A stretch of DNA of 64,000 nucleotides from Chryseobacterium capnotolerans (GTDB lineage Bacteria > Bacteroidota > Bacteroidia > Flavobacteriales > Weeksellaceae). A program made the translations under genes and the position numbers. Below are positions 6,589-25,402 of this stretch, in pieces (position 1 is the stretch's first letter; every line of letters begins with the position of its first letter). The stretch covers positions 2,051,001-2,115,000 of the forward strand of contig NZ_CP065589.1 of assembly GCF_021278965.1 (NCBI RefSeq), written 5' to 3'. The notes below the pieces were generated by a model. It ran no database searches. It was not told where the DNA came from and was given only the letters and a program-made list of their open reading frames with translations.

Positions 6589-6592
6589 AGCT

Positions 6593-7825: not shown

Positions 7826-7843
7826 AATCCACAGGTGTGCCTT
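7826..7843 (-). promoter_or_regulatory. Possible -24/-12 (sigma-54-like) promoter
   Basis: On the minus strand AAGGCACACCTGTGGATT has the GGCAC of the sigma-54 -24 element and GA instead of GC at the -12 position (GG-N10-GA). The promoter candidate at 20377-20394 has the same GG-N10-GA arrangement (AAGGCA...TGATT). It lies 22 bp from the ATG and 55 bp downstream of the palindrome at 7897-7911. Confidence 0.4.
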
Positions 7844-7896
7844 TGTTTTTAATCATTGATATTCAATTGTTTATGTGATTTTATTTACTTTATTAT

Positions 7897-7930
7897 TTCC
7901 AGATTATGGAATTATTAATGGAATTTGGAA
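7897..7930 (-). promoter_or_regulatory. Candidate enhancer (UAS) of the sigma-54 activator, copy 1
   Basis: Palindrome TTCCATAATCTGGAA (minus strand) at 7897-7911, plus a further TTCCA half-site whose first base is 19 bp upstream (7926-7930). The same layout occurs at 13351-13385 and 20436-20469, each time about 85-115 bp before a gene start. The half-site overlaps the end of the preceding gene. Confidence 0.6.
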
Positions 7931-8991
7931 AATATCTTAAGGGATTGTTTTTCAAAGTTGTCGATAGAAAAAAGCTTACTTTTTTGCTGAGCATACAGAC
8001 TGAATTGTTGGTAAAGGTTGGGATTATTAAGTAATAATTTCAGTTTCTGTGAGATCACAGTAATTTCCTTAGAATTGATACAGAAACCGTTTTTACCATC
8101 ATCTATTAATTCGGTTACACCTCCTATCGGTGGAACAATGGCAGGCAGACCATAAGCCATACCTTCCAGAATGGTAAGCCCAAATGTTTCTACCCAAAGT
8201 TTTGTATCAGAAAGATTCAGGATCACATCCGCTTCTTTATAAAACCGATGTGTGTCTTGCTGGGTAGGATAAATATATAGGTTTTCAGGAAGCTGTTTTT
8301 TTTCAAAATAGGAATGAATATCATACACTGACGCATTCAGGACAAGCTTAAAGGTAAATTCAGGATTTTGCTCTGATAGTGTCACAAACTCATCTACTCC
8401 CTTGTATTTTTTTAAAGAACATAACATCAAAACTATTTTACGCTCATTGGCTTGCAGGTTTTTGGGAACTGCCTTCTCAATAAAGTCTTCTTCCAGAACA
8501 TTATAAATAATTTCTGATTTTTTACAGATTGGTTCTTGTAAAGCAAGAAATTGAGATACATATTTTACTTCAGAAGCCGTTACAGAGGCTATTCCAAATA
8601 AGAATTTTTTCAATATTTGAGGTTTTACGGAAGTTTCATGCACATGGTAGACTATCCGGCAGCCTTTTAATTTTGCAATAACCGCAGCACCAAAAGGCAA
8701 TACAGTATTGATATACACAATATCCTGCTTTTTCAGAAAAAATAATAACCGGATGGCTAATGCAAACTGACTGATGATAAAAAATAAAAGTCTGATTATT
8801 GGATATCCGGAAAAACGGTATTCATATCCATGATAATGTATACCTGAAATATCGGAAAGAAAACCTTTATTTTTTCCACCGATAAAAAGATGGGTTTCTT
8901 TTCCGTTCTTTGTCCATATTTTCAACAGCTGCATAAGTACTTTTGGACTTCCGCTGTAATCGTTTAATAAGTGTACGGCTATTATTCTCAT
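7915..8991 (-). CDS. GT4-family glycosyltransferase
   Basis: 358 residues with a GT-B layout. The N-terminal acceptor domain starts MRIIAVHLLNDYSGSPKVLM, and the C-terminal donor domain shows VETFGLTILEGMAYGLPAIV with the E-x7-E nucleotide-sugar motif of family GT4. Its ATG overlaps the stop region of the preceding glycosyltransferase by 4 bp (ATGA), so the two are translationally coupled. It acts at the cytoplasmic face of the membrane, adding a sugar to the lipid-linked repeat unit. Donor and acceptor are unknown. Confidence 0.85.
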   Translation of the reverse strand: MRIIAVHLLNDYSGSPKVLMQLLKIWTKNGKETHLFIGGKNKGFLSDISGIHYHGYEYRFSGYPIIRLLFFIISQFALAIRLLFFLKKQDIVYINTVLPFGAAVIAKLKGCRIVYHVHETSVKPQILKKFLFGIASVTASEVKYVSQFLALQEPICKKSEIIYNVLEEDFIEKAVPKNLQANERKIVLMLCSLKKYKGVDEFVTLSEQNPEFTFKLVLNASVYDIHSYFEKKQLPENLYIYPTQQDTHRFYKEADVILNLSDTKLWVETFGLTILEGMAYGLPAIVPPIGGVTELIDDGKNGFCINSKEITVISQKLKLLLNNPNLYQQFSLYAQQKSKLFSIDNFEKQSLKIFSKFH

Positions 8992-10216
8992 GGCTCAAAG
9001 TTTTGATAAATAGTATTCAGATAATCACCTCTCTTATCCCATGAAAACTTTTCTTCATAATATTTTCTGGCTTCTCTACTCATTTTTTCTGTCAGAGAAG
9101 GATCAAGAAATAGTTTTAATAAATTATGGCAGAGGCTATCTACAGTTGTATTGTAAGAATTTTCACTGACCGTAAATCCGAATTTTGAATGAATATATTC
9201 GCCAGGACCTACATTGTTCAGTGCTATTACAGGAAGTCCAAATGATAAAGCTTCTGCAACTACCATTCCTGCTCCTTCATGAGAGGGAAATAGAAAAGCA
9301 GAGGATTCTTTATAGGTATTCATAAGTTCTTTTCGGTCAATCCATTCTATAATTTGCACATAGGGTTCAATGTGATGCTTTGAGATCAATTGTTGATAAA
9401 GTTTTTTTTCCGGACCGGTTCCCACAAGTGTTAATCTGCAGGAAGCACGGTTTTTCTCAGGGATATGTTTTAAAAAATCAGCAAATGCATTGATCGTGAG
9501 ATCAAAGCCCTTTAATGGAACAAATCTTCCCACACTAAGAATCTGAAAACTCTTTTTAGGTTTGAAACCTTCGAAAAAATCTTCTGTAGCTACGGAGGGA
9601 TAAATAGAATAATGTGATTTGTTTAATGGCAGAGACTCTGAGACACTGGAATTCATGCACCAGATATGGTTTGCATTTTTCACAGAATTTTTCAGGGCCG
9701 GCGAAAACTTCCAGGAGATCTTTTAACAAGCCATTTTAGCCTGTCATTCAGAAGAGTTCTGAAACTATAAAATCTGAGATATTGTCTAGGAATTTTAGGA
9801 TGATGCCCTACAGGACCCCAAACAAGAGGTTTATGAAGTTTCCACAAAAATGTGGGAGTCCAGTCGTTATGGAAATTGAGATTATGGACAATATCAAAAT
9901 CAAGTTGTTTACTTTTAATAAAACCAATTATATTTCTCTGCCACAGGTAAAAATAAACCATAGCTCCTCTGCTGCCTTTTTTCCAGAATCTTGCCCAATA
10001 AGGAAGATCAAAATAAAGAAACTGTATATTTTCAAAAATTTCATCAGGATTTTCCTTCATGTATTTTTCAATGGAAGAACGGTTGTTTTCTCTGGTAATG
10101 GCAATTACTTTTCGGAACTTTGCAATCTGACATACAAAATTCCATCCCATAGCATCTTCCGATCCTTTATACGGATTTACGGCATAGCAGGTTGCTAAAA
10201 TGGTTGTTGTTTTCAT
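8988..10216 (-). CDS. GT4-family glycosyltransferase, frameshifted near 9721
   Basis: Two fragments form one glycosyltransferase of about 410 residues. The first (from ATG at 10216, MKTTTILATCYAVNPYKGSE) covers the N-terminal GT-B domain and runs into a stop near 9692 after LKWLVKR. The second continues with SWKFSPALKNSVKNANHIW and holds the donor domain (ILSVGRFVPLKGFD, EGAGMVVAEALSFGLPVI). Adding one A to the AAAA run (plus-strand T run 9721-9724) joins them in frame, so this is probably a sequence error. The start lies 50 bp inside the preceding acyltransferase gene, an unusually long overlap. Confidence 0.85.
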
Positions 10217-10907
10217 GGCCGTCTCTTGTTTTAATAATTTTTGCAGGAACACCTCCTATGACAGAATTTTCAGGAAAGCTTCTGTTGACTACACTTCCGG
10301 CAGCAATGATGCAGCCATTGCCGATTTCAACACCATCCAGAATGGTCACTTTACTGCCAATCCAACAGTTTTTTCCTATTCTTATCCCTTTTCTGTTTAC
10401 ACCCTGAAGCCTTATGGGAGAAGTGAGATCTTCATAATTATGATTTTCAGGATGGCAGCTCAGGTACTGACCTGTTATGCAGTCATCTCCTATTTCCAGT
10501 CCTCCGGCTCCTCCTAAGTAGGCATATTCACCAATACCTACATTATTCCCGATCTTTATCCCTTTTCCCATATGATTGAATGAGGTAGAAATGATAATTC
10601 TACTGAATGCTCCGATGGATACATTGTTACCTAAATGAACGCCGTCTCTGCCCATTGCAGAAATATAAACGTTGTCTCCCAACCGGAGAAACCGGCCCCA
10701 GGTTATTCTTGAAAGGCAGAAAAAATGAACCTGCCTTCCGAGTAACAATCCTTTGCTTTTTTTTAATGCGAAGAGTACTTTCATTCCCCGTAAAAAGCTC
10801 ATCCCCTGAATCAGAATAAACTGCAGAATCATACGGGAACTTAGATCTTTATCAAAAGAGAAAGAGGGATTTCTCTTTTGTAAAATTTGTAAAATAAACT
10901 TTTTCAT
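10167..10907 (-). CDS. Hexapeptide-repeat acyltransferase (left-handed beta-helix)
   Basis: 246 residues with many hexapeptide repeats ([LIV]-G-x4), e.g. VHLGNNVSIGAFSRI, IKIGNNVGIGEYAYL, IRIGKNCWIGSKVTI, and the usual end VVNRSFPENSVIGGVPAKII. This fold carries O-acetyltransferases that use acetyl-CoA; in an exopolysaccharide cluster the likely role is acetylation of a sugar in the repeat unit. Its ATG overlaps the stop of the preceding fusion gene by 4 bp. After the family's normal end (VPAKIIKTRDG) the frame continues for about 17 residues over the next gene's start. Confidence 0.85.
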   Translation of the reverse strand: MKKFILQILQKRNPSFSFDKDLSSRMILQFILIQGMSFLRGMKVLFALKKSKGLLLGRQVHFFCLSRITWGRFLRLGDNVYISAMGRDGVHLGNNVSIGAFSRIIISTSFNHMGKGIKIGNNVGIGEYAYLGGAGGLEIGDDCITGQYLSCHPENHNYEDLTSPIRLQGVNRKGIRIGKNCWIGSKVTILDGVEIGNGCIIAAGSVVNRSFPENSVIGGVPAKIIKTRDGHENNNHFSNLLCRKSV

Positions 10908-13252
10908 TGTGTAGTTAGAATCATGTGTGTTAATGTCTGGAGTGTGGTAGGAAGATCGCTGTTCTTCAATGAGGTGTAGATGTTCTTTCTTTTTCTTTCT
11001 GCCAATCCTTCAAATAAGTTTTTGTATTCTTGAGTGAGGAATTCTATGGTATCCTTTGAAAGTTCTTTTTTTCTTTGCAGAATGACCTGAGAGTCTTCAT
11101 ATAGGAAAACATTATAATCGGGTTTCAGAAGGAAAAAATAGCCTGTTCTGAAAAGCTTTTCGGGAAGAATGATATTGCTTCTTTTGCCATCAACAATAAA
11201 GTCAAAATAATATCGATCATAGATCACCACATACCCTCTCAGAATATATTTAAAATATATAATGAATTGTCCCAGAAGATAATCTGTATAATAATATCCA
11301 AATCTGAATAATGAAGACAGAAAGCTTCTGTTTTTTCCTTGTCTGGGTAAAGATTCTATAACTTCTTTATGTGCTTTTTCTTTTCCTTTTGTCCATACAC
11401 TGAGAATGGGTAAAAAAGAGGGGCGATGACGCAATATTACCGAGGGCTTTCTCAATTTTTTCTCGATAATTAAGGATAAATCGGAGATGACCGTAGATTT
11501 CCCGGCACCATCTACCCCGCTTAGTGTAATAATAAATCCTTTTCCGGAAAACAGATCCATAAAATAGTGGATAGTGTTGAGGAAATAACTTAATCCTTTA
11601 TTGGACTTTTCTTTTTTTAAAGCTTTTATTATTACTTTTTCATCATTGTATAAAGGGCCAAACAATACTTTGTCTACATTATTTTCTGACGTTTGATTGA
11701 AGTTGATATTTATAATAGAATTGTGTTTTTTAGGGACGTCAGATTTGTTTAGTTTATAAAACAGGAGGATGTATTTGGCAGTGTCTTCTTCTGAAACGTT
11801 CTTGATTCCGAAGTTGTTGATATAGCTGTTTGAAATGAGCTTTTTAGCATCAAGTATCTGAATGTTTTTCCATTTTAGCTGGTGGATACAGTCAATAGAC
11901 AGAATTTCATAATCTTTGGTAATAATTTTTATATGGGTTAAGAATGATTTTTTTTCCAGAATAATTTTATGAGTATATATATGATGGCTGAAGTAGGAAT
12001 AGAGATCCTGTGCTACAGATTTACTGCAGATAAGATCGATATCCGAATATTCAGGAAGTTTTTCAGGAGATCGATCAGGAAATTTCAATGCAGCATACTC
12101 TTCATGATTAATTCTACTGAAAAGGTCTAAAATGATGAGCTTTCTGTGGCTGTATTGGTCTTCCAGAAATGTATTCAGAGATTCGTTCCATACGGAGAGC
12201 AGCCAGTATACCTGTTGATGCCATTTTTCCTGTTCCGAATAGATATTGATATGTTGCAGGATGTTGATGAGAAGGTATAATTTTAAATATTTATGAAGGG
12301 TTTCTATTTCAAAATTGAATACAGAGTTGTTTTTGATCATTATTTCTCTGTAGATTTCTTTCCAGCATTTCTTTCCAATCAGAATATTATTTTGAATGAT
12401 AAAATGGAAATAATCAAAGCCTTGCGAGCGATTAAAAGCAGCCAGCTCCCAGTCATAAATTCCAAGTTTTTCATTTCCGATATTGGTATTCCATGCTGTA
12501 AAATCACCGTGTGAGAATCTTAGGCTGATTTCTTCCTGTTCAGGTAAAGAATTTAAAATATCTTTGATTTTTTGGAAAAAATTCGGAGGAAACCTTTTAT
12601 CCTGAGTTTCATAAAACTGCTTTTTCAAATCCTTAAGCAGCTTCCACTCTCCTATTTTTATTTTCCCTGAAAAAAAGGAATCCAGTTCTTTAAGAGCTTT
12701 CATATGCAATACTCCCAAAGCTGCAGTCTGATTTTGTTTTTTACAGATATCACTGGTCCTTAAGACTCTATCATTTAAAAGACTGGCCATAGGAATCTCG
12801 TAAAACTTTCCTGCCGGTAATGTCTTTAATATCTCCCATTCCTGCTGAATAAGCTGACGGGATGTTTCTGAATTCGCTATTTTATAAAAATATTTTTGAT
12901 AGTATAAAATAAGCTTATTATTAGGTCCGGCTGTCCCTGTAAAAAGAGCCCATTCTTCCTGAAGGTTACAAATGGGAGCAATGATAGGATCGTCATAATA
13001 CAGCTTTGCTTTTTTGAACAGAATATGCTGTAATTTCATAAAGAAAACTAGTCTGATTAATGCTGCTGTTAATAATGAAGAGAAAGAAGATGTGGAGTAA
13101 AATTTCAGGAATACAGGATTTACATTTTTAGCATTCCAAATCCATCGCAATGTTCCATCTGTATTTTTGATAGACAATACGGTTATTTTTTTTTGGTATT
13201 CATCTGGATGTAGAGAAACCTGATATCCTAAATTTTTAAATACGTTTTCCAT
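10904..13252 (-). CDS. Three-domain fusion: APH-like kinase, nucleotidyltransferase-like, thymidylate-kinase-like
   Basis: 782 residues. Residues about 100-370 resemble aminoglycoside/choline kinases: HGDFTAWN (248-255) matches the catalytic loop HxDxxxxN and IYDWE (265-269) the magnesium-binding DxE/D. Residues about 395-480 contain EYSDIDLIC (401-409), like the GS-x-DxD centre of nucleotidyltransferases. Residues about 570-782 are a P-loop kinase of the thymidylate-kinase type: GVDGAGKST (579-587) and DRYYFDFIVDG. All three domains keep recognisable catalytic motifs. It sits in the polysaccharide operon, 4 bp overlapping the acyltransferase. A role in phosphorylating or activating a glycan precursor, or in controlling chain length, is conceivable but not shown. 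Confidence 0.7.
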   Translation of the reverse strand: MENVFKNLGYQVSLHPDEYQKKITVLSIKNTDGTLRWIWNAKNVNPVFLKFYSTSSFSSLLTAALIRLVFFMKLQHILFKKAKLYYDDPIIAPICNLQEEWALFTGTAGPNNKLILYYQKYFYKIANSETSRQLIQQEWEILKTLPAGKFYEIPMASLLNDRVLRTSDICKKQNQTAALGVLHMKALKELDSFFSGKIKIGEWKLLKDLKKQFYETQDKRFPPNFFQKIKDILNSLPEQEEISLRFSHGDFTAWNTNIGNEKLGIYDWELAAFNRSQGFDYFHFIIQNNILIGKKCWKEIYREIMIKNNSVFNFEIETLHKYLKLYLLINILQHINIYSEQEKWHQQVYWLLSVWNESLNTFLEDQYSHRKLIILDLFSRINHEEYAALKFPDRSPEKLPEYSDIDLICSKSVAQDLYSYFSHHIYTHKIILEKKSFLTHIKIITKDYEILSIDCIHQLKWKNIQILDAKKLISNSYINNFGIKNVSEEDTAKYILLFYKLNKSDVPKKHNSIININFNQTSENNVDKVLFGPLYNDEKVIIKALKKEKSNKGLSYFLNTIHYFMDLFSGKGFIITLSGVDGAGKSTVISDLSLIIEKKLRKPSVILRHRPSFLPILSVWTKGKEKAHKEVIESLPRQGKNRSFLSSLFRFGYYYTDYLLGQFIIYFKYILRGYVVIYDRYYFDFIVDGKRSNIILPEKLFRTGYFFLLKPDYNVFLYEDSQVILQRKKELSKDTIEFLTQEYKNLFEGLAERKRKNIYTSLKNSDLPTTLQTLTHMILTTQ

Positions 13253-13350
13253 GATAATAAGTTGTCTGTACCAAAGTATAAGATAAAATTGAACCTAATT
13301 TTCAATATGTTGATTTTCAGTATTTTAATTGCGTTTTACTTGTGGTTTTA

Positions 13351-13385
13351 TTCCAGATTATGGAATAAGAATTTTATTTCTGGAA
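13351..13385 (-). promoter_or_regulatory. Candidate enhancer (UAS) of the sigma-54 activator, copy 2
   Basis: Palindrome TTCCATAATCTGGAA (minus strand) at 13351-13365, identical to copy 1, with an upstream TTCCA half-site at 13381-13385 (offset 20). It lies about 100 bp before the fusion gene start at 13252. At the same 55 bp distance as in copy 1 there is a GG (in TTAGGTTCAATTTTATC, near 13281-13297), but its -12 half is poor. Confidence 0.6.
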
Positions 13386-14677
13386 TAAATCCGGCCGTTT
13401 TCTGTAGAGTTTTATCCTTTGAAATGAGGTAAGATATTTCCTGTTTTCAAATGCTATAGAGAAAATAATGATTTGAAAGAACAGAATTCCATAATTACTT
13501 TCCCCAAAAATTCCAAATTCTGTAAAAGAATTGATAAGAACAGGGATAAGAATTCCGATCAGCATCAGTTTTTGTTTTTTTTTTGTGCAATAATAGCCTT
13601 TATGGTAAAGAATACCTGGCCAATAACAATCATAAGACCTACAAAACCTAGATTCATTAATACCTGCATAAAAGTATTGTGAGTCATTTTTCCCGGATAA
13701 GTGTGGGTGCTTTTAAAGAATTCTCCATAATCAATTCTCATAAAACCAAATCCGAATAATGGTTCTCTGGGTAATCCCTCAGTGATGAGAGCTTTCCAGA
13801 AAGGAAGTCTTCCGGTAAGGCTCATAATTTCCTCAAGTCTGTCTTTGTCTCCACCTTTTAAAATAACCTGATAGACCGCAAATGGAGCTACTGCCAGCAC
13901 TGCCATAATAATGATGGCTTTGAGACCTTTTCTTTTAGTCTGATTGATATGAAAAAATATAATAATTAGTACACCTATTAACGAAGAACGGGAGCCGGTC
14001 ATAAACAGAGCATAAAAAATGACAGCAATTTTTATGATGATCCAAAGCTTATTTTTTTTCCTGTACAAATCAAAGATCAGACATGCAATACCCACTCCTG
14101 CCAGCATTCCCAATTCGTTAGGATTCATAATGATTCCTCCTAGACGTGCTTCTTCACCACCGTTGGTAAGTCTGAAAAAAGTTTCGGGATCCACCCACAT
14201 TCCCACAACAAATACTGTTTGTAAAATAAATACAACATTTCCCAGAAGGTTATACAGCCGGATAGGATGCCCTTCAAAATAAATATCCAGTGTTGTAAGG
14301 CTTTTGATAAAAAAATAAGCGAAGACAAAGCTTTGAAAAACCATCAGCCATTGCAGTGCACTAAATCCCGGATTGGTACTCCATGCAAAGGAAGCTAATC
14401 CCAATATAAGATAACCGAGATAAAAAACGGGAGAGAATATATTTTTATATCCAAGACTGGATGCTGCACCGTATCTGATAATGCGGTAGTAAATGAAAAC
14501 CGATGAAAACATAACTCCCATTCTTCCTACTACTTTTATGATTCTGGTAATGATAATATTTTCGCTCCAGGTAAAGAATCCGGCAATCATCAGCAGAAGA
14601 ATGATAAAAAGAAATAGGTTGGTGTTTTTTAGAAACTTCTGATGTCTGTTCTCTGTAGAAAGGTTAGATGTTTTCAT
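13374..14677 (-). CDS. O-antigen ligase/Wzy-type polymerase, frameshifted at 13575-13584
   Basis: A polytopic protein with about 12 membrane segments and the large periplasmic loop of Wzy/WaaL proteins (residues about 270-330, GRLPFWKALITEGLPREPLFGFG, with the conserved THNTFMQVLMNLGF). It polymerises or ligates undecaprenyl-linked repeat units in the periplasm. The first fragment (13565-14677) stops in a run of ten A; the second (13374-13565) holds the typical C-terminal end LINSFTEFGIFGESNYGILF. One more A in the run (plus-strand T run 13575-13584) restores about 434 residues. Its ATG overlaps the preceding glycosyltransferase by 14 bp. Confidence 0.85.
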
Positions 14678-15780
14678 AGAGTTCCGTATTTAATCGGTTT
14701 AAAATGATGTCCCAGTCAAATTCATACTTTACCATTTTAATGGCCTGACTTTCCATTTCGTGGAAGAGTTGTTTATCAAGCCATGTTTTATAGATCTGAT
14801 GCATGGCGAGGGTTAGTTTTTGGGGGTCATTTGAGAAAAGACAATTCCGGCATTATATTTTTCAACTTGTTCGCCAATATTGGTATTGGTACTCACAATA
14901 CAGGGTTTTCCGAAGCTGGCTGCTTCCAGTACGGCAGCAGGAAGTCCTTCGTTGCGGGAGGGATGGAGGAAAATATCCATCTGCTGAAGAATTTCATTTT
15001 TTTCTGCACCAAATTTGGGACCTAATAGTTGTATTTTATTCTGTAGCTTTTTAGTTCTGATGGTCTTTTCAAGCTGTTTGGCCTGGTTACTGCTGCCAGC
15101 TATCCAGAGTTCTGAATCGGGAACTTCTTTCTGAAAATTATCAAAAGCGTCGATCATCAGATCGAGTCCTTTAGTATAAATATCTAATCTTCCTAAAAAA
15201 CCGAATGTTATTCTTGCATTATCATCTTTTTTGCGGGAATTTATGTTTTCAGGATCAAAACCGTAAGGAATGAGTACCGTTTTGTTATTTTCATACATAT
15301 TCTGGAGTCCATAAGTTTCTGAGTTTCCAATACAGTGAATTCTGCCTGCATTTTCAAGAAGTTTTTTTTCAAAAAAATGGAAGTATATTTTTTCAGATAA
15401 TGGCTTTTTTGCATGGCAATTGTGTTGTAGGCACCATGAGCTGTGATGAGAAACTTTCTCTTGTTGCCGGATAGAAAATTCCCTAATGAGGAATACAACG
15501 GAAGCCAGCCCCCATGAAGATGAAAGATAGTTTGGCTGTTTTTCTTCAGAATTTCTATTTTTAATTGCTCATTAAGGTGAAAAGGATTCATGCTTTTTTT
15601 GAAGAGTAATGTTTCAAAATTTCTTTCAGGATAATTTCTTTCCAAGGTGTCTGTAATACCCCATACGGATACTTTTATACCTGCAGCAGCCTGTTTGGAG
15701 GCAAGCTGATATACTACTTTATTCACTCCGTTCATTCGTTCAGGGTTAGCCTTTCCCAATATGATGTGTATTATTTCCAT
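14664..15780 (-). CDS. GT4-family glycosyltransferase, broken by two frameshifts
   Basis: Three fragments in different frames make one glycosyltransferase of about 372 residues. The N-terminal part starts MEIIHIILGKANPERMNGVN at 15780. The middle (15298-14813) holds the donor domain (ITFGFLGRLDIYTKGLDLMI, EGLPAAVLEAASFGKPCIVS). The C-terminal tail, read from about 14836 to the stop at 14664, gives LTLAMHQIYKTWLDKQLF and ends ELYENI. One missing base in the A run 15371-15377 and one in 14836-14839 (plus-strand numbering) explain both breaks. It overlaps Wzx by 10 bp upstream and Wzy by 14 bp downstream, as in an intact operon. Confidence 0.85.
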
Positions 15781-17018
15781 AATGAAGAATTGTTTTTACG
15801 AAGTTGTAGTTTCCAATACAGGATGAGGATGATCTGACTCATCATAAGTCCTGTAATAGCACCGTATAATGCGGTATATTTTAAAAGAAAATGAAATATA
15901 GTCAGAATAAATACCGTTGAAAAAATATAGCCGTAGAAGAATATTTTATTGAGTTCCGTTACTCTCACAGCAATCCGTACCGGATATCCCCAAAAGATCA
16001 GCAGATAAAGCAGAGACATTAGCTTAATTACATATCCGAAATGCTGGTATTGAGTACCCCCAAAAAGAATCATGATTTCCTCTGAAAAAATAAATATTAA
16101 AAGAAGAACAGGTCCTAAAATGAAAAAGCCATAACGTTTGATTGAGAATAAAAATTCTTTGGCTTCATTTGTATCTTTATGATAAAGACGGGCTGTTTTG
16201 GGAAGGAAAAAATTTTCCACAGTCTGTAGGATAACATTAAAAATACCAAAGAAAGACTGTGCCAGTCTTAAGGCGGCTAAAGCCTCTAACCCCAGATATA
16301 AACCTGAAATCAGTACAAGGAAATTTCCCGAAAACCATTGGAGTAAAGCTGAATACAAAAACCATTTTCCATTGCTTTTATAGTATTGCAGGTAGGGCTT
16401 ATCCGAAATAGGAAATACTGCATTTTTTAAGAAGTACAAAATCCCTGGAAGTGAAGATAATAGATTACCCACTCCAATAATTAATAATACCTTTCCCAAT
16501 GTGAGTGATGTACATATAATAAGAGGAAATACACATAAAAAGAGAAGATCAATACAAAGTACGGCAGGCAGTTCCTGTATAGCCAGCAATGATTTTCTAA
16601 AAAAATCCTGAATAAAATAACCAAGAATAAAAATAGCCGCTTCTCCATAATGTACTGCTAGGAATTCTAAATTTTCCATAGATAGCGAAGGTTTTGGAGG
16701 AAATTTTAAGAAAAGATAAATCAGGCTCAGCAGAATAATAAGAAACAATAAAAATCCGGCTGATACTTTACTGATAAAACCTAATGATTCACAGTGCGGG
16801 CTTTTGGATACCATGATTTGGTAAGGTTGTATGATGAGTGCGTTCCCTATATTCAGAATAAAATAAGATCCTATTAAAACATAAGAGTATATTCCAAATT
16901 CCTGTATACTCAGAGTTCTGGCCAGAAGAAAAGTGAGCAGGAAATTGCTTCCGCTATACAGGGCCTGATCTGTAAAGACCATGACACTGGATTTTCTTAT
17001 GTTGACTAATGATTTCAT
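15771..17018 (-). CDS. Wzx-type oligosaccharide flippase
   Basis: About 415 residues with 12-14 hydrophobic segments and no charged domain, in the style of the MATE-like polysaccharide exporters (SSVMVFTDQALYSGSNFLLTFLLAR near the start, GNALIIQPYQIM). Wzx proteins turn the undecaprenyl-linked repeat unit from the cytoplasmic to the periplasmic leaflet before Wzy polymerises it. I choose the ATG at 17018, which overlaps the Wzc-like gene stop by 4 bp; an upstream Met at 17042 is less likely. It lies between the Wzc-like gene and a glycosyltransferase, matching a Wzx/Wzy-dependent pathway. Confidence 0.85.
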   Translation of the reverse strand: MKSLVNIRKSSVMVFTDQALYSGSNFLLTFLLARTLSIQEFGIYSYVLIGSYFILNIGNALIIQPYQIMVSKSPHCESLGFISKVSAGFLLFLIILLSLIYLFLKFPPKPSLSMENLEFLAVHYGEAAIFILGYFIQDFFRKSLLAIQELPAVLCIDLLFLCVFPLIICTSLTLGKVLLIIGVGNLLSSLPGILYFLKNAVFPISDKPYLQYYKSNGKWFLYSALLQWFSGNFLVLISGLYLGLEALAALRLAQSFFGIFNVILQTVENFFLPKTARLYHKDTNEAKEFLFSIKRYGFFILGPVLLLIFIFSEEIMILFGGTQYQHFGYVIKLMSLLYLLIFWGYPVRIAVRVTELNKIFFYGYIFSTVFILTIFHFLLKYTALYGAITGLMMSQIILILYWKLQLRKNNSSLWK

Positions 17019-19159
17019 TTGTTTTTCAATGAAGTGATACACTTTATCAGATATTTTATGATACTTGGGGTGTAGCCTGCTTTATTCAGTACAAACCATA
17101 GCTTTGGAAATTGATATTCTTCATTGAGTATCTCAACTTCCAATATTCTTTTTTCCGCAGTTTTTCTGCTATCCAGAATAAAAAGATTTTGATTGGCCAG
17201 GCTCATCAAAAGAAGAGCGAGTGTGTTTTTTTTAACTGCAACATTATTGATGATACATAATTCGTATCCTTGAGATGCTTCATGAATGAAGTGTTCAAGC
17301 TGTTTTCTGGGCTGAAAAAGAATTTCATTTCCGGAAAGATCAATGATATTATCAGACTGATAAGGAAAGTTTCCTGCAATATCAATAAGAATCACTTTTC
17401 GGTGTTGCTTTTCAAGAGCTTTCATCGTGTTTTCGATGAGAAAAAGGTGATCTTTTTCTTTATCATAGGAAGTCACAGTAATGGTATTATGATCTTTAAG
17501 AATACCTTTAAGCTCCATTTCAGTAATATTTTGCAAAAGGCGTGAAATATTTTCGCTTTCATTCTTGATGTAAGGGGTGGTAAATGCTATAGGAATGTTG
17601 CTGTTTTTTTCTATGGTATACACATCATTTACCTTTGCTTTTGCATAATGTACCAAATAAATAGCTGCAATGGATGTAATCATACCTATAATAGCTGCTA
17701 CAATAATGATGATAGACCGTACAGGTGATACAGGACTTTTAGGAATTTCTCCGGGAGTAATTACTTTGTGGAAGGAAATTTTTGCAGATTTTGCTATTTC
17801 CGCATCAATGCGTTTCTCATTCAGGAAATTATAATTCTTTTCGTAGAGATTAAACTCCCTGTTCAATACATTGAGGATTCTTTCTTTCTCAGGCAGTCCT
17901 ACAAAAGCCTGTTCTGCAACTCCGATATCTTTGTTGATATCTCTATATTTGATCTGTAAATTTTTAGCGGTATTTTTGATGCTTTCGGTCTGATAATCTG
18001 TAAGATCTTTCAGTTTGGCATCAATTATTTTTACTTTTTCATGTTCTGGAGTATAGGTAAGCAGTAATTCTTTTTTCTCAGCCTGTAAATTTTTCATATT
18101 CTTTACCATTTCTGTAGAAAGTAAGTCGTTGAATGCTTCAAAGTTTGGGGCCAGTTCAAGATAATTACTTTTCCCCTGAGAGATGTAATTGTTGAGATAA
18201 TTAGCGGCATCCAGATTCATTTTTATATTGCTTTGTTGAATTTTCAGCTGGGAAATTTTTCTGAGATCTGTTTCTGTTTCCTGAGGAATATTAATGATAT
18301 TGTTGTGATCTCTGTAATTCTGAATCTGGTTTTCTGTACTGGTAAGCTTAGCCCTTGCCTCTTTAATTTCATTTTTAAGGAAAACCGTGGTAGTATCTGC
18401 TGCTTTATATTTACTCTCGATATAATCCTGAATGTAGGTTTCAGCAAGGGTATTAACAAATAATTCTGCTTTTTCAGGTACATTACTTTTAAAATTGATT
18501 CTGATAACCGGTACATCTTTATCTACAGAAACAATGTCCAGATTTTTATTGGTTTTCTCCAGAAGTTTTTCATGACTTAGAAATTCAAATTCATATTCAT
18601 CAATCATCTTGAGTCCCGGTTTAGAAAGAATGAAGTTTTTATTAAGAGTAATGAGTAATTTCCCTCCTGAAATAGTAATAGGTTCACCAAAATTTCCTTC
18701 TACAGCAGTTTCTTTTCCAGGAAGAGTAAGTTGAAATCTGTTATGTGAAAGAATTTTCAGGGAGAATTTTTTATCATAATTTTTATCTGAACTGAAGGTA
18801 CCTTCTACAAAAAAGGGAGTGTTTTTGAACAATTCTGCTGAATGCAGATCTCCTTTTCTGTAAATCTCTGTGGAAAACGGAAGTTTTGAAAGTGTTTTCT
18901 CAATAAGTGATGAGGATTTGAGAACTTCAATTTCTGTATTGATTTTATTGGCAGACGCAAAAACGTCGAAATCTTTAAATAAATTGGCGCTTGGAACTCC
19001 TTCCTGAGTATCTGCAAGTTTAAGCATGGCTGTACTCTCATAAATAGGAGTAACATATCCAAGATATTTTTTCGCTGCCAATATAGACAGTACTATAGCC
19101 AGAATAATAAAGGGAAGCCCTCTATACAGTGGTCTTATAAATCTAATGTTCTCGTTCAT
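17015..19159 (-). CDS. Wzc-like polysaccharide co-polymerase with degenerate kinase domain
   Basis: 714 residues. Membrane segment 1 (about 13-30) and segment 2 (about 487-510) flank a periplasmic domain with long coiled coils (about 250-450), the Wzz/GumC pattern of chain-length control. The C-terminal 180 residues correspond to the BY-kinase domain of Wzc but have lost the Walker A loop: the stretch after the strand TITVTS reads YDKEKDHLF, with no GKST. The A' motif is weakened to VILIDIAGN, and the usual C-terminal tyrosine cluster is absent. So it is probably a structural co-polymerase without tyrosine kinase activity. It forms a unit with the Wza-like gene 11 bp upstream. Confidence 0.85.
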   Translation of the reverse strand: MNENIRFIRPLYRGLPFIILAIVLSILAAKKYLGYVTPIYESTAMLKLADTQEGVPSANLFKDFDVFASANKINTEIEVLKSSSLIEKTLSKLPFSTEIYRKGDLHSAELFKNTPFFVEGTFSSDKNYDKKFSLKILSHNRFQLTLPGKETAVEGNFGEPITISGGKLLITLNKNFILSKPGLKMIDEYEFEFLSHEKLLEKTNKNLDIVSVDKDVPVIRINFKSNVPEKAELFVNTLAETYIQDYIESKYKAADTTTVFLKNEIKEARAKLTSTENQIQNYRDHNNIINIPQETETDLRKISQLKIQQSNIKMNLDAANYLNNYISQGKSNYLELAPNFEAFNDLLSTEMVKNMKNLQAEKKELLLTYTPEHEKVKIIDAKLKDLTDYQTESIKNTAKNLQIKYRDINKDIGVAEQAFVGLPEKERILNVLNREFNLYEKNYNFLNEKRIDAEIAKSAKISFHKVITPGEIPKSPVSPVRSIIIIVAAIIGMITSIAAIYLVHYAKAKVNDVYTIEKNSNIPIAFTTPYIKNESENISRLLQNITEMELKGILKDHNTITVTSYDKEKDHLFLIENTMKALEKQHRKVILIDIAGNFPYQSDNIIDLSGNEILFQPRKQLEHFIHEASQGYELCIINNVAVKKNTLALLLMSLANQNLFILDSRKTAEKRILEVEILNEEYQFPKLWFVLNKAGYTPSIIKYLIKCITSLKNK

Positions 19160-19170
19160 TTTTTTAGTTT

Positions 19171-19905
19171 TTAAAGAAGTCCTATCAGAAGTGTAGCGGC
19201 TGTAGCAAAAGGAATAATCGTAGAAATACGTTTATCAAAGTCTTTACTTTTCTTAGAAGGTACAATCACAAAGTCTCCGGGATGAAGCTGGGTATTCTGA
19301 TAACTGAAGTCTCCGGGAGTGGTCATATCTATATTGGTAACTCTTACATTTTCTCCTTCCTGGCGGAGAATCTTTACCGATTTCAGATTGGCATAAGATT
19401 CAAATCCGCCTGATTCAGATATAATTTCCATCAGGGTGTTCTGATCTTTATCTACATGTATTACGGCAGGGCTTTTAACCTCCCCCAGCACTGTAATTTC
19501 TTTGTTCACAACCTTTATATCAACAATAGGAGTTACCAGCCATCTTTTTAGTTTATCCTTTATTTCCTCTTTCAGCTCAGGGATTGTTTTTCCTACAACA
19601 TAAGTGGTTCCTAATCTTGGTAATTCTATATTTCCGTTTTTATCTACCAGAAGCCATTTTCCATATACCTCATTGGAGTTATAAATGCCATATACAGAGC
19701 CTACACTCAGGTCGTCCTGACCCCAGACAGAAAGCGTAATTTTATCATCTTTTCTGATCTGATACTGGTAAGTATCCTGATACTTAAAGTCTGCTTTATT
19801 TTCAGTAGGTTTCTTTTCTTCAAAAAGGTTTTGTGTCTTGCATGAAGAAAGCAATAAGAGCAGGAAAAGTAAAATAACCGGGTGGATGTTGATTCTGGTT
19901 TTCAT
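19171..19905 (-). CDS. Wza-like polysaccharide export lipoprotein
   Basis: 244 residues with a lipoprotein signal (LLLFLLLLLSSC, lipobox before Cys22). A Poly_export domain follows (YQYQIRKDDKITLSVWGQDD, about 48-67) and then a SLBB-like part (ITVLGEVKSPAVIHVDKDQN, about 133-152). A hydrophobic C-terminal end (IIPFATAATLLIGLL) may span the outer membrane, as the helix of Wza does. It would form the outer-membrane channel working with the Wzc-like protein. It lies 11 bp before that gene and 11 bp after the receiver-only gene, so all belong to the unit starting at 20354. Confidence 0.88.
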   Translation of the reverse strand: MKTRINIHPVILLFLLLLLSSCKTQNLFEEKKPTENKADFKYQDTYQYQIRKDDKITLSVWGQDDLSVGSVYGIYNSNEVYGKWLLVDKNGNIELPRLGTTYVVGKTIPELKEEIKDKLKRWLVTPIVDIKVVNKEITVLGEVKSPAVIHVDKDQNTLMEIISESGGFESYANLKSVKILRQEGENVRVTNIDMTTPGDFSYQNTQLHPGDFVIVPSKKSKDFDKRISTIIPFATAATLLIGLL

Positions 19906-19916
19906 AGTTTATTTTT

Positions 19917-20354
19917 TTAAAAAAACATAGAAAAGAGACGGAAGATGCCATTGTTTCTGTTGCCTTTATCAATTTCTTCCTGTATCTTTAGAATTCTGTT
20001 GATTGTACTCTGCATTTTCTGACATACAGTGTTATCTTTGACCAGATAATCAAAAGCTCCGTATTTCAAAGCGTCTACTGCAATATTGATTTCCTTTTGT
20101 CCGGAAACCATAATGACATAAATATTAGGATTATATCTTTTAATTTTTTTAAGGGTTTCAAAACCGTTCATGTCATCCATACTATGATCCAGAAAGATGA
20201 TATCAGGCTTAAGATCAAGACTATTCAGACATTCGTCTCCCGTACCGAAGTAGAGAATGTCAGTATAATTAAGGTTTTTGAGATACTGCTCATAAGCATT
20301 TGCACAGAACAGATCATCGTCTACAATAAAGAATTTTAATTGATTAGGATTCAT
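19917..20354 (-). CDS. Receiver-only response regulator
   Basis: 145 residues, essentially one REC domain: acidic pocket VDDD (11-14), phosphoacceptor D56 in DIIFLDHSMDD, conserved SG and the late lysine in YLVKD. A short tail (about 125-145) has no output domain. Its N-terminus and D56 region resemble the REC domain of the sigma-54 activator at 24057-25402, so both probably take phosphate from the same hybrid kinase. It is the first gene of the wza-wzc-wzx unit, which starts after an enhancer-like palindrome and a -24/-12-like element. It may be a phosphate sink or act on an export protein; not known. Confidence 0.85.
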   Translation of the reverse strand: MNPNQLKFFIVDDDLFCANAYEQYLKNLNYTDILYFGTGDECLNSLDLKPDIIFLDHSMDDMNGFETLKKIKRYNPNIYVIMVSGQKEINIAVDALKYGAFDYLVKDNTVCQKMQSTINRILKIQEEIDKGNRNNGIFRLFSMFF

Positions 20355-20376
20355 TGTGTATATTTTTTAAAAATAA

Positions 20377-20394
20377 AATCATATACAATGCCTT
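20377..20394 (-). promoter_or_regulatory. Possible -24/-12 (sigma-54-like) promoter
   Basis: AAGGCATTGTATATGATT on the minus strand shares AAGGCA at the -24 side and GATT at the -12 side (GG-N10-GA) with the candidate at 7826-7843. It lies 22 bp from the ATG at 20354 and 43 bp downstream of the palindrome at 20436-20450. Confidence 0.4.
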
Positions 20395-20435
20395 GGTTTA
20401 ATTATTTGATTGTCAATTACTTGTGCTTTTGTCAT

Positions 20436-20469
20436 TTCCATTTTATGGAAAATAAGCTGATTTTTGGAA
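20436..20469 (-). promoter_or_regulatory. Candidate enhancer (UAS) of the sigma-54 activator, copy 3
   Basis: Palindrome TTCCATAAAATGGAA (minus strand) at 20436-20450 with an upstream TTCCA half-site at 20465-20469 (offset 19). Same layout as the copies at 7897 and 13351; the start it serves is at 20354. Confidence 0.6.
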
Positions 20470-20498
20470 AAAAATATGGAGAATAAAATCAACAAAAA

Positions 20499-20525
20499 AG
20501 CCTCATGTTTTCATTACACGAGGCT
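20499..20525 (-). terminator. Intrinsic terminator after the hybrid kinase gene
   Basis: AAGCCTCATGT pairs with ACACGAGGCTT (one mismatch), and on the minus strand the stem is followed by CTTTTTTG. It lies 22 bp after the kinase stop at 20547 and separates the regulator genes from the wza unit. Confidence 0.75.
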
Positions 20526-20546
20526 TCTGTTTTGGGGAATAATCTA

Positions 20547-23500
20547 TTATTCATTTGCTTTTAAGAGCTTTATTACTTCATAAAGAGTTTTTTCTATTGT
20601 GTCAGAAAGGTGTTGTATTTCTAAAAGTAATTCTGAGGTTTGCTCCTCCTCTTTTGCTTTTATTTCGAGTGTTCTGATATCTTCAACGATGGAATGAATG
20701 CCCATAGCTTCTACACCAGGTCTTATTTTATGCATCAATTTAGCCATTTCATGATAATTTTGCGATTGAAAGCAGGTACGCATCTGTACAATGGCACTTT
20801 CGGTCTGACTAATGAATATGGAAATCATTTTTTTTACAAATTCCTCGTCACCTCTGCTTAACGTACGAATGCCACCAAGATCATAAAGATGAGAATCTGA
20901 AGTTTCCGTAGTTTTATTTTTATAGCCCGATGCTTTTGAAAGCTTAGTATACTTATAAAGCACTTCCAGGAGTATTTCTTCCGAAAACGGTTTGGTAACA
21001 TAGTCATTCATGCCTGCTGATTTACATTTTTCAATTTCTGTTTTGAACGCATTGGCTGTAAGGGCAATAATGGGTGTGGTTAAGAGGTATTTTTTTCTAA
21101 GGATTTGAGTAGTTTCTATTCCATCAAGTTCCGGCATCTGAATATCCATCAGAATAATATCAAACTTTTCTTTCTTTAAGATCTGTATTGCCTGCTTACC
21201 GTTTTCAGCTTCCGTTACATTACATTCAAAATTCTGAAGTGTATTTTGGGCTACTACCCTGTTCATCTCATTATCTTCTACGAGCAGAACTTTAATCCCG
21301 GCAACAGAAGTGGCAGGGTAATTTTCTTTTTATCAGTATTTTGCTCAAGAAACCCTTTATAGAGAGATAAAGTAATTTGTATGACCGTACCTTTATTTTT
21401 TTCACTTTCAATGTTAATCTTGCCATGCATTAGCTTTACCAATTCCTGGGTAATAGCCATTCCAAGACCGGTTCCACCAAATCTTCTTGCAATACTTTCA
21501 TCTTCCTGATAGAATTTTTTGAAAATTTTGTCGGCAAAGCCTTTGCTCATCCCAATTCCGGTGTCAGAAACCATCAAACTGATTTTCTGAGTAGACGGGT
21601 GATCTTCCAATACCCTGCATTCTACTTTGATTTCACCTTTCTGGGTAAACTTTAACGAGTTCCCGACCAGGTTGAAAAGGATTTGTTCTATTCTTAACGG
21701 ATCTCCTTTGAAAGCAGAAGCCATATCCGGTGAATATTGTGAATAGAGTTTTAATTTTTTTTGTTTTGCTTTAGGACTGAGTATATTAATAATATTGTTA
21801 ATAGAGTCTTTTAAAGAAAAATCTTTCACCTCGAGGGACATTTCACCTGATTCAATTTTAGAAATATCCAGGATATTATTAATAATTGATAGAAGGTGTC
21901 TAGAAGCCTGGGTACTGTTTTCTACCAGGACAGCCTGAGATGAAGATAACTTTTGCCTTTCCAGTTCACGTAAAAATCCGATAATGGCATTAAGTGGCGT
22001 TCTGATTTCATGGCTCATCGTAGCAAGAAATACTTCCTTGGCTTTTGAGGCTTCCTGAGCCTTATCTTTTTGCTTTTGGAGGTCTTCTTCAAGCCTTTTC
22101 TGATCTGTAATGTCCAGGTGTATTCCTATGGAACCTATAAGATTGCCTTTATCATCATAATTGGGAGCTCCGCTTATTGCCCACCATCTCAGTTCTCCAG
22201 CCTTATTTTTTACGGGCACCTGGTATACACTGGAAACTCCGCTTCTTCGCAGCTGGATTTGTTTTTTTACCAATTCTACATCCTTTTCATGATGTATAAA
22301 AAGATCAGCAGGGTTTCTGCCCAGAATTTCCTCTACTTCATAACCGGAAACATTACAGAAGCTCTGATTGGCATATTGTATAACCTCATTCATATCTACT
22401 TCAAGAAGTCCCAGATTCATATTGGCAATCATATTCCGGTATTTCTGTTCCTGTAGTTTCATAGTATGCTCTATTCTTTTTCTTTCTGAAATATCCTGAA
22501 TAAAAGAACAATAAAACTCTTGTTCTTGTTGTTGGAATGAAATGATGGATATTTCCATAGGAAATTCTTCGCCGGATTTTCTGATAGCCGGAAGCTGAAT
22601 TTGTCTGTTAAGAACCGAGTTTTTTTCGTCTGCTACATAGTTTTTATAGCTCTCTACTTTTTTTTGTGGAATAATGGTTTCAAAGATATTTCTGCCTATG
22701 ACTTCATTTTTCTGCCAGCCAAATATGGTTTCTGCGCTTTTATTCCAGAATATAATTTCACCAACAGAGTTTATGGTGATAATGGCATTAATGGCTGAAT
22801 CCATAATCAGCTGGCTTCTTTGTTCACTCTGCTGTAAAAGGCCTTGGTTGGTTATTTTTTCTGTAACATCTCCAAATTTCCAGATATGACCATCCTGTTT
22901 ATTTCTAGTCTCAAAATTAAAATGATCAATTTCTAAAAACCTTCTGTCCCATGTTTCAGCAAGTCTTCCCATGACCTTCTGATCTTGGCTTTCTCCAATT
23001 ATTTTTTCTAAAAGATCATCTTCTTTGAAGTGGTCATTTATTTTTATTTCAGACAGTTTTTTGCCTATAATTTCTGAAGGGATTCTATTGGTTTTAAAAA
23101 TTTCACAGAAAAGCTCATTGGTGAAAAGAATACGTCCCTGAGGATCTTCCATCAATATTCCATACTGAAGATTAGAAATAAAGGTTTTGAGAAGCTCCAG
23201 AGTCTGGGTAAGGTTGCTTTTAATTATAAACCTTTCCTGAGCATTTACCAGAACTTTTGAAAAAGAGTAAGTAATTCTGTTTCGGTATCACTGAAATGAT
23301 GAAGTTTTCTTACCCAGTCAAAACCAATAAATCCTGTACATGATTCTTTTGACATCATGGGGATTACCATAAGGCTTTTGATATCCTGTGAAGAAAGAAG
23401 TTCTTTAAGGTTTCCATCATTTAAATTCTTTACACTGGGTATTGTAATGCTTTTCCCTGCCTTATTGGCTTCTACCCATTCCGGAATTGCTTCAAGAGGT

Positions 23501-24014
23501 ACATTCTGCAGATCATCCATCTGGGGTATAGTTCCGGAAGAACAGTATTCATAGGTATTGGAACATGTTCCTGCTTCAAAATTATAACTGAATATATAAG
23601 CTCTGTCAGCTTTTACAAAGTCTGCCATTTCTTTGAGCGACCTGTTCATGGCAGTATCTATCATTTCGAAAGAAATATTGATATAATCTGATGAAATCTC
23701 CATCAACAGCTTTTTCAGTTTATTCTGCTCAGTCAGCGCTGCCATTATTTCTTTTTTGTCTGTATCTGGCGGGAAATATAATCGATAAGCTGAAAACTGT
23801 TACGTAAAGTAATAGCTTTGATCTCCTTGTCTAAATGTTCTGTTTCCTTATAAATATATTCAATAGAGTCCTGCGGGATATCTTTTTTAGCCTTATCGAA
23901 AGATTGATAAGATAGATTAACAGCCTGAATAAACCGAGTAAGATCCGGATCTGAAAGATGATCTTGTGTAAGAAACTTTTTTATTTGACTTTCAAGTAAT
24001 TGATGAAATTCCAT
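20547..24014 (-). CDS. Hybrid sensor histidine kinase (GAF, PAS repeats, HisKA, HATPase, REC, HPt), three frameshifts
   Basis: Four fragments in a row make one protein of about 1,150 residues. Order: an N-terminal helical region (MEFHQLLESQIKKFLTQD), a GAF domain (DRAYIFSYNFEAGTC), a degenerate PAS and then two clear PAS domains each with a PAC end (ITINSVGEIIFWNKSAETIF; GLLEVDMNEVIQYANQSF). Next come HisKA with the phospho-His in SHEIRTPLNAIIGF, HATPase (NLVGNSLKFTQKG, DTGIGMS, GGTGLGMAI), REC (DIILMDIQMPELDG) and an HPt-like domain (LMHKIRPGVEAMG). Single-base changes in runs at 23771-23773, 23260-23264 and 21316-21318 restore the frame; the last recovers the REC start VLLVEDNEMN. No membrane segment is seen, so it senses a cytoplasmic signal. 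It lies just after the sigma-54 activator gene and probably feeds it phosphate. Confidence 0.85.
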
Positions 24015-24056
24015 GATGTCTTTTGGGGATTGGTTATACTGTTAGAAAATCATGAT

Positions 24057-25402
24057 CTATTTGTTCTGTAAAAGATTATAAATAGTTGATTTGCCAATAT
24101 CTAAAACCTGTGCAGTTTTCATAACATCATTATTATTTTTCTTAAGGTGATAAAGAATAATCTCTGTAGTAAATTGTTTAAGTGTTTTTTCTGCAGAAAT
24201 GAAAAGGTCTTCTTTATTTCCTATGGGGTTAAAATGAATGTCTTCCGGTTGTATTTCATTGTCATCTGCCATTACACAAGCCAGATCAATAACAGATTTA
24301 AGCTCGCGGACATTCCCGGGAAACGGATATTTTGTAAGCTTGTTCATTGCTTCGCTACTAAGTGCAAAGGGATTCATTCCGTTTTCTTTAGCAAATAATT
24401 TGATGAAATGTCTGGCCAGAATAATAACATCCTGATCTCTGTCACGGAGAGGAGGTAATTCTATAGGTAAGCCTACGATTCTATAGTACAGATCCTCACG
24501 AAAGTTTCCTTTTTTACTTCTTCTGCAAGGTTTTTATGGGTGGCAATAATAAGCCTGGCATCGAATTTTATTTTCTGTGTTCCGCCTATTCTTGTAACTT
24601 CTCTTTCCTGTAAAGCTCTTAGTAATTTGCTTTGGAGATTGATGTCCAATTCTGCAATTTCATCGAGGAAAATAGTCCCTCCATCTGCCTGTTCAAATTT
24701 TCCGGAACTTTTGGATAAAGCTCCTGTAAAAGCTCCTTTTTCATGTCCAAAAAATTCACTCTCAATAAGTTCCTTCGGAATTGCGGCCATATTGATGGCA
24801 ACAAAGGGTTTATTTTTACGGTCAGAATTATAATGAATGGTTTTGGCCACTACTTCTTTTCCAGTACCGGTTTCACCTGTAATAGATACATTGATATTGG
24901 TTTTTACAGCTTTACTGATCTTTTTGAAAACCTCCTTTATGGCATCACTTTGGCCTATAATGTTTTTTTCAAAAGAATATTTTTTTTCAAGTTCTTCTTT
25001 CAGTTCCTCTACTTCTTTTTTCAGAGAAATCGTTTCTTTCACCTTGAGGATGCTGTTCCATAACATTTCTTTGGTGTGTTCATTTTTCACGATATAATCA
25101 TGGGCACCTGATTTTAGAAAATTGATTGCCGTCTCAATATCGTCCTGGCCGCTAATAATAATGATTGGGACAGAGGGCTGTGCTTCCTTGAGTTTTTTAA
25201 ACAGAACATCTCCTTTCATATCAGGCAGGCCAAAATCAATACAGATAATATCCGGATTGAGATATAAGCCGGACAAACAATCTTTTGCTGTATCAAATGC
25301 AATGATTTCATGATCAGGATTAAGGGAGAGATGATATTTTAACATTTCACTAAAAAACATATCATCTTCCACAATGAATATTTTTGTGTAATTTGGTTTC
25401 AT
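24057..25402 (-). CDS. Sigma-54-dependent response regulator (REC-AAA+-Fis), frameshifted near 24508
   Basis: About 448 residues. REC domain 1-120 with D56 (DIICIDFGLPD), then the AAA+ sigma-54 interaction domain: Walker A GETGTGKE, the sigma-54 contact loop GAFTGA, Walker B GGTIFLDEI. The last 40 residues form a Fis-type helix-turn-helix (DVMKTAQVLDIGKSTIYNLL). The first fragment stops after AEEVKKETF. One more G near 24508-24509 gives AEEVKKGNFREDLYYRI, the normal family sequence, joined to RHFIKLFAKENGMNP. It is the top gene of the cluster and the likely activator of the units preceded by TTCCA-N5-TGGAA. Confidence 0.9.

Follow-up and report, generated by a model that had tools for sequence, protein, structure and literature searches.

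A candidate sigma-54 regulon for exopolysaccharide or capsule carried by a gene cluster of Chryseobacterium capnotolerans

The question raised by this locus is whether three separate units of a polysaccharide cluster obey a single regulator that the cluster itself encodes. The locus lies on the minus strand of a 64-kb stretch (the window) of the genome of Chryseobacterium capnotolerans, which consists of one contig of 5.36 Mb. From position 25402 downward, it comprises the genes for an NtrC-type activator and a GAF-PAS hybrid kinase, followed by three units whose product is predicted to be a polysaccharide, each of them preceded by a palindrome TTCCA-N5-TGGAA (in the order P1, unit 1, P2, unit 2, P3, unit 3; Table 1). 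The initial annotation had interpreted this arrangement as a sigma-54 regulon. Comparison with relatives supports this interpretation well, and we consider it highly probable that the locus carries its own sigma-54 regulon for exopolysaccharide or capsule, made up of the activator, the palindromes and three operons, in which activator binding to the palindromes, sigma-54 reading of the promoters and a phosphorelay from kinase to activator are predicted from sequence.

The three palindromes were found at the places first described upstream of the three units, and two of them, P2 and P3, are identical (TTCCATAATCTGGAA). All three are preceded by a further TTCCA half-site, as had been reported; the spacings, which had been given as 19, 19 and 20 bp for P3, P2 and P1, are 19, 20 and 19 bp from start to start. 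The window holds four exact copies of TTCCA-N5-TGGAA, with a mean of 0.17 in shuffled sequence and 0 of 100 shuffles reaching four. The fourth copy (14751-14765), which had been missed, lies within the 3' end of a frame-broken glycosyltransferase gene. An exact palindrome in the 3' end of this gene, just before the Wzy_C gene, is also seen in the genomes G039, G049, G050 and G067; these intragenic copies apparently fall at differing codons and may reflect chance or a weak internal site.

The comparison covered the clusters of all 22 activator-bearing genomes among 173 genomes of the genus, three loci of Flavobacteriaceae (L164-L166), nine of one further genus (f3/g13), termed Flavobacterium-type by their likeness to L164 and L166, and two of a third family (f7/g58). 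Of the 173 genus genomes, 22 encode a close orthologue of the activator (71-100%), and the receiver gene of unit 1 occurs in the same 22. The P1 palindrome is present with at most one mismatch in all 36 loci that have the receiver gene (22 Chryseobacterium, 12 Flavobacterium-type and 2 of the third family), 33 of the copies being exact. The P2 palindrome is exact in all 24 loci with a gene of the 782-aa type that opens unit 2 (18 Chryseobacterium and 6 Flavobacterium-type, including L275, where a spurious open reading frame (ORF) overlaps the palindrome), and the P3 palindrome is present with at most one mismatch in all 18 loci with the unit-3 gene, 15 times exactly. In the 315 other upstream intergenic regions of the same loci, which served as a control, only 2 exact copies and 3 with at most one mismatch were found. 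Conservation of the motif upstream of orthologous units, a check named in the initial annotation, holds both within and beyond Chryseobacterium.

The information content, calculated from 25, 18 and 16 sequences for P1, P2 and P3 (20, 14 and 13 after removal of near-copies), is 1.96-2.00 bits per base in the arms of the palindrome, 1.1-1.25 in the spacer and 0.6-0.65 in the flanks, except for 1.3 upstream of P3. Such near-invariant arms within diverged flanks argue against the palindromes being RNA hairpins, terminator parts or products of chance. A terminator-like hairpin does stand right beside the site in several Flavobacterium-type loci, which would favour this explanation, but these hairpins lie downstream of the palindrome and are distinct from it in sequence, and the explanation is scarcely credible. 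Chance origin, in particular, was ruled out by the shuffles and by the 3/315 background regions.

Sigma-54 promoters follow the consensus GG-N10-GC, with GG at -24 and GC at -12. Matching elements had been described for two of the three units, and the sequence agrees for units 1 and 3. In the relatives, GG-N10-G follows P1 in 36/36 loci and P3 in 17/18, the base after the -12 G being C, A, T or G; the exception is L280, which has GG at 73 bp from P3 without the -12 G. The presence of rpoN, another check that had been proposed, was confirmed by one match in the genome of C. capnotolerans. Given that rpoN is found in 172 of the 173 genus genomes, it is the locus-borne module, not rpoN, that decides which genomes have the regulon.

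The spacing between the centre of the palindrome and the first G of the GG falls into groups near 51, 63 and 74 bp, each separated from the next by roughly one turn of the helix. For P1 it is 50-53 bp in 18 and 69-70 bp in 4 of the 22 Chryseobacterium loci; among the remaining 14 loci, it is 62-65 bp in 11 and 81-82 bp in 3. For P2 it is 62-66 bp in 24/24, and for P3 it is 73-75 bp in 15, with 63 and 65 bp in C. capnotolerans and G088. The longer P1 spacings of G049, G050, G053, G166, L166 and L280 are explained by a second, degenerate copy of the site some 19 bp downstream; none was recognised in L282. One candidate was taken for each of the first 25 P1 sequences within a broad range of 47-84 bp, and the ranges for P2, P3 and the later P1 sequences were set post hoc. 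The period statistic (R of 0.75-0.77 at 10.5-11.5 bp) is descriptive, because ranges were fixed once the data had been seen.

The GAFTGA-bearing activator that had been ascribed to the cluster is present, but in this assembly a frame break divides it, residues 297-448 of the orthologue in G057 aligning at 24515-24060 in another frame (tblastn). The orthologues are intact in 20 Chryseobacterium clusters, with about 447-454 aa; the one in G063 has PF00072, PF00158 and the AAA lid. Across 17 aligned orthologues, GAFTGA (GSFTGA in one row) is accompanied by a C-terminal helix region with almost no variation, in which the helix-turn-helix was assigned by reading the alignment, no Pfam helix-turn-helix model being reported. 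The orthologues have the full architecture of an NtrC-type enhancer-binding protein. In G063, one protein makes up the whole kinase, including its receiver and Hpt domains, and the activator and kinase genes are separated by a gene with a FIST domain. Most relatives have the FIST gene; it was not found in the stretches examined of C. capnotolerans, G011, G057, L276, L282 and L283.

The occurrence of the same mark before three units, kept beside the same regulators in other genera, suggests one shared sigma-54 switch. In such a switch, the hybrid kinase would pass phosphate to the activator, probably via the kinase receiver and Hpt domains, and the activator would bind TTCCA-N5-TGGAA before each of the three operons, with the half-site about two helical turns upstream. 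The bound activator would then contact the sigma-54 polymerase at GG-N10-G about 51, 63 or 74 bp downstream, on the same face of the helix, and this contact would turn on the genes for export, assembly and glycosyl transfer together. This would provide a testable regulon, comprising an activator with its likely kinase, one exact DNA site that is kept across genera, and as many as three promoters in each genome; there are few descriptions of how Flavobacteriia control capsule and exopolysaccharide.

Several observations weigh against this explanation, and the first of them concerns P2. The -12 G is found in 36/36 sequences for P1 and in 17/18 for P3, and in 0/24 for P2, which would favour a situation where only units 1 and 3 are under sigma-54 and the activator, and unit 2 relies on a promoter of a different type, with another use of the palindrome. 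P2 is atypical given that the mapped transcription starts of Flavobacterium psychrophilum define an ordinary -24/-12 motif for sigma-54 (PMC9723704). Nonetheless, P2 retains its palindrome in every locus and, at 62-66 bp, has (A/T)GGC in 23/24 and AGGT in C. capnotolerans, where the candidate AGGTTCA (GG at 13294-13295) is placed as in the relatives. A different promoter for unit 2 is in our view unlikely. The comparison of P1 and P3 with P2 offers a natural contrast for what the sigma-54 polymerase of Bacteroidota needs at -12.

A second group of observations on the same side concerns the specificity of the motif. The exact palindrome occurs at 18 places in the genome, versus 19 for the reversed control pattern; there is no over-representation, which means that its placement is special and the word is not. 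Fifteen of the 18 places were fetched, and 10 of these lie inside ORFs of at least 80 aa, the other five being P1, P2, P3, the 14751 site and L011, between two genes. A wider regulon was not found among these 15 places, to which only L011 adds an intergenic one. The combination of the palindrome with TCAN5TTR was rejected as a regulon finder for being unspecific, given that it matches 92/173 genus genomes, namely 22/22 with the module and 70/151 without it.

Outside the close orthologues, neither an exact palindrome nor an intergenic copy with one mismatch was found at the Bacteroidota loci L167-L177 (11 loci, 42-56% identity), some of the stretches being short. Among 29 loci from across the order whose activators are more distant (L281, L284-L311), stray copies outside ORFs, with no more than one mismatch, were seen in 8. 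These more distant activators do not appear to carry the arrangement. In nine paralogue loci (39-44%), where only exact copies were sought, one (L101) has a palindrome of unclassified position. The spacing classes are also less secure than their counts, given that they derive from related sequences, which leaves few independent spacing shifts, and some windows were picked after inspection of the data. As a separate observation, L286 (2954) and L290 (2947) each have the palindrome TTCCAATTTTAGGAA, with one mismatch, some 50 bp upstream of their distant activator gene, where self-control of this activator is possible.

The last point on this side is the frame break of the activator. Genes in more than one frame amount to 6/36 when the window is compared with G057, and 4 of these 6 are outside the cluster. 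The same control for frame splits gives 0/15 for G063 with G050, 0/15 for G063 with G021 and 4/13 for G063 with the cluster of C. capnotolerans. Since unrelated genes elsewhere in the window are also broken, and the two intact relatives show 0/15, the frame breaks are likely to be uncorrected indels of the assembly. Decay of the cluster is disfavoured as their cause, because the splits also hit genes beyond it. If the breaks were true, the switch would be dead in this strain and that of the relatives would be unaffected. Compared with near relatives, genes split into two frames are seen at about 38.7, 49.6, 55.2 and 56.2 kb of the window as well as in the cluster.

The palindromes could also be the operators of another DNA-binding protein, such as a repressor, with the operons using housekeeping promoters and the locus activator acting elsewhere. 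The link between activator and site is one of co-occurrence, the genome has three other strong sigma-54 activator genes, and the missing -12 G of P2 would agree with such an operator. Given that activator, receiver and site travel together, and that GG-N10-G is found at phased distances after P1 and P3, we regard this as quite improbable, and a sigma-54 switch run by the locus activator is preferred.

A middle element lies between the palindrome and the -24 element. Chryseobacterium promoters have TGA-N3-TCAA-N4-TTA at this position, and WWTCARNNNNTTR is found in 16/25 P1, 11/18 P2 and 11/16 P3 sequences, with shuffle means of 0.4-0.6. Integration host factor (IHF) recognises the consensus WATCAANNNNTTR, which lies between the enhancer and -24 in IHF-assisted sigma-54 promoters, and we take the middle element WWTCARNNNNTTR to fit the IHF core. 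The genome has two genes of the HU/IHF family, either of which may encode HU or IHF. Another protein at this element is possible, since the dyad TGA-N3-TCA fits 13/25 P1, 8/18 P2 and 8/16 P3 sequences. A requirement for IHF does not seem to be general, because the three P1 rows of Flavobacteriaceae that were compared lack the looser TCAN5TTR and a hairpin is found instead at several Flavobacterium-type P1 and P2. In L273, L279, L272, L164 and L275, the terminator-like hairpin is located between the palindrome and -24 at P1 or P2, and its T run merges into TTGGC.

The single-domain receiver may constitute a separate output. P1 and the receiver are kept in G011, G057, G162, L166, L274, L276 and L277, where the stretch examined (reaching only about 5 kb past the receiver in L166) revealed neither wza and wzc nor the genes of units 2 and 3; G018 and G167 keep partial polysaccharide genes. 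A further-reaching proposal, which is tentative and rather doubtful as a whole, is that Flavobacteriia use a compact enhancer complex phased on the helix, with palindrome pair, bending element and -24 box whole turns apart, that P2 is a sigma-54 promoter which keeps a strong -24 and in two genera does without the -12 G, and that the receiver under the palindrome is a second output.

By analogy, the cluster may work like the syp/SypG control of Vibrio, to which membership is not claimed. In Vibrio fischeri, syp depends on sigma-54 and the NtrC-type SypG, and the hybrid kinase RscS signals to the HPT domain of SypF, SypG being phosphorylated in turn by SypF (PMC10162802). As far as this account of syp extends, the two would share a polysaccharide locus, sigma-54, an NtrC-type activator, a hybrid kinase, more than one promoter (sypA and sypP in syp) and a defined upstream site. 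They differ in phylum and in the site itself, which is TTCCA-N5-TGGAA here and TTCTCANNNTGMDWN in syp. The present locus further departs from syp by the single hybrid kinase gene next to that of the activator, by the FIST gene that most relatives have, and by the single-domain receiver that stands first among the genes predicted to be regulated. The DctB2D2 system combines an NtrC-type activator with RpoN-dependent starts for exopolysaccharide clusters; its signals are dicarboxylic acids and dctA is among its targets, whereas here the activator gene is within the polysaccharide locus.

Closer to Chryseobacterium, the sigma-54 regulon of F. psychrophilum, from the same class, was derived from mapped starts, with three PF00158 proteins; its published table, which is a selection, lists chaperones, proteases, gliding and envelope genes and no polysaccharide cluster (PMC9723704). 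Sigma-54 has been described as widely controlling the cell exterior, including exopolysaccharides, in a survey whose main text does not contain Bacteroid-, Flavobact-, Cytophaga or Chryseobacterium (Francke et al. 2011, PMC3162934). In a literature search of open-licence papers, no example of a sigma-54 polysaccharide regulon in Flavobacteriia was found.

Table 1. Features of the locus, in minus-strand order (positions in the window).
Feature	Position	Strand	Basis
NtrC-type activator: receiver and most of sigma-54 AAA+ domain (GAFTGA), up to frame break	24473..25402	-	PF00072, PF00158
Activator remainder in another frame, with C-terminal helix-turn-helix region	24057..24515	-	tblastn with G057 orthologue
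Hybrid kinase pieces, GAF-PAS-HisKA-HATPase-receiver, frame-broken	20547..24014	-	domain matches, relatives
P1 upstream half-site TTCCA, 19 bp before palindrome	20465..20469	-	pattern match
P1 palindrome TTCCATAAAATGGAA, putative enhancer	20436..20450	-	pattern match
P1 middle element TGACAATCAAATAATTA, IHF-like core	20399..20415	-	pattern match
P1 -24/-12-like element AAGGCATTGTATATGATT (GG-N10-GA)	20377..20394	-	GG-N10-G in relatives
Unit 1, first gene: single-domain response regulator (receiver)	19917..20354	-	PF00072
Unit 1, remainder: wza, wzc/wzz-type, flippase-type, glycosyltransferase (frame-broken), Wzy_C protein	13565..19905	-	Pfam
P2 upstream half-site TTCCA, 20 bp before palindrome	13381..13385	-	pattern match
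P2 palindrome TTCCATAATCTGGAA	13351..13365	-	pattern match
P2 middle element TGAAAATCAACATATTG	13303..13319	-	pattern match
P2 -24-like element AGGTTCAATTTTATCTT, without -12 G	13280..13296	-	offset 63, as in relatives
Unit 2, first gene, 782 aa	10904..13252	-	weak P-loop / thymidylate-kinase-like matches, without confident family
Unit 2, remainder: hexapeptide acyltransferase and glycosyltransferases	7915..10907	-	domain matches
P3 upstream half-site TTCCA, 19 bp before palindrome	7926..7930	-	pattern match
P3 palindrome TTCCATAATCTGGAA	7897..7911	-	pattern match
P3 middle element TGAATATCAATGATTAA, one off IHF core in spacing	7849..7865	-	pattern match
P3 -24/-12-like element AAGGCACACCTGTGGATT (GG-N10-GA)	7826..7843	-	GG-N10-G in relatives
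Unit 3: DUF1972 glycosyltransferase and WecA-type sugar-phosphate transferase	5521..7804	-	domain matches

The 782-aa protein of unit 2 belongs to no confident family, yet its gene is kept behind the P2 palindrome in two lineages. In the third family, an extra palindrome followed by GG-N10-G is found between kinase and receiver (L282, 6941; L283, 8139), before an ORF of more than 1500 codons.

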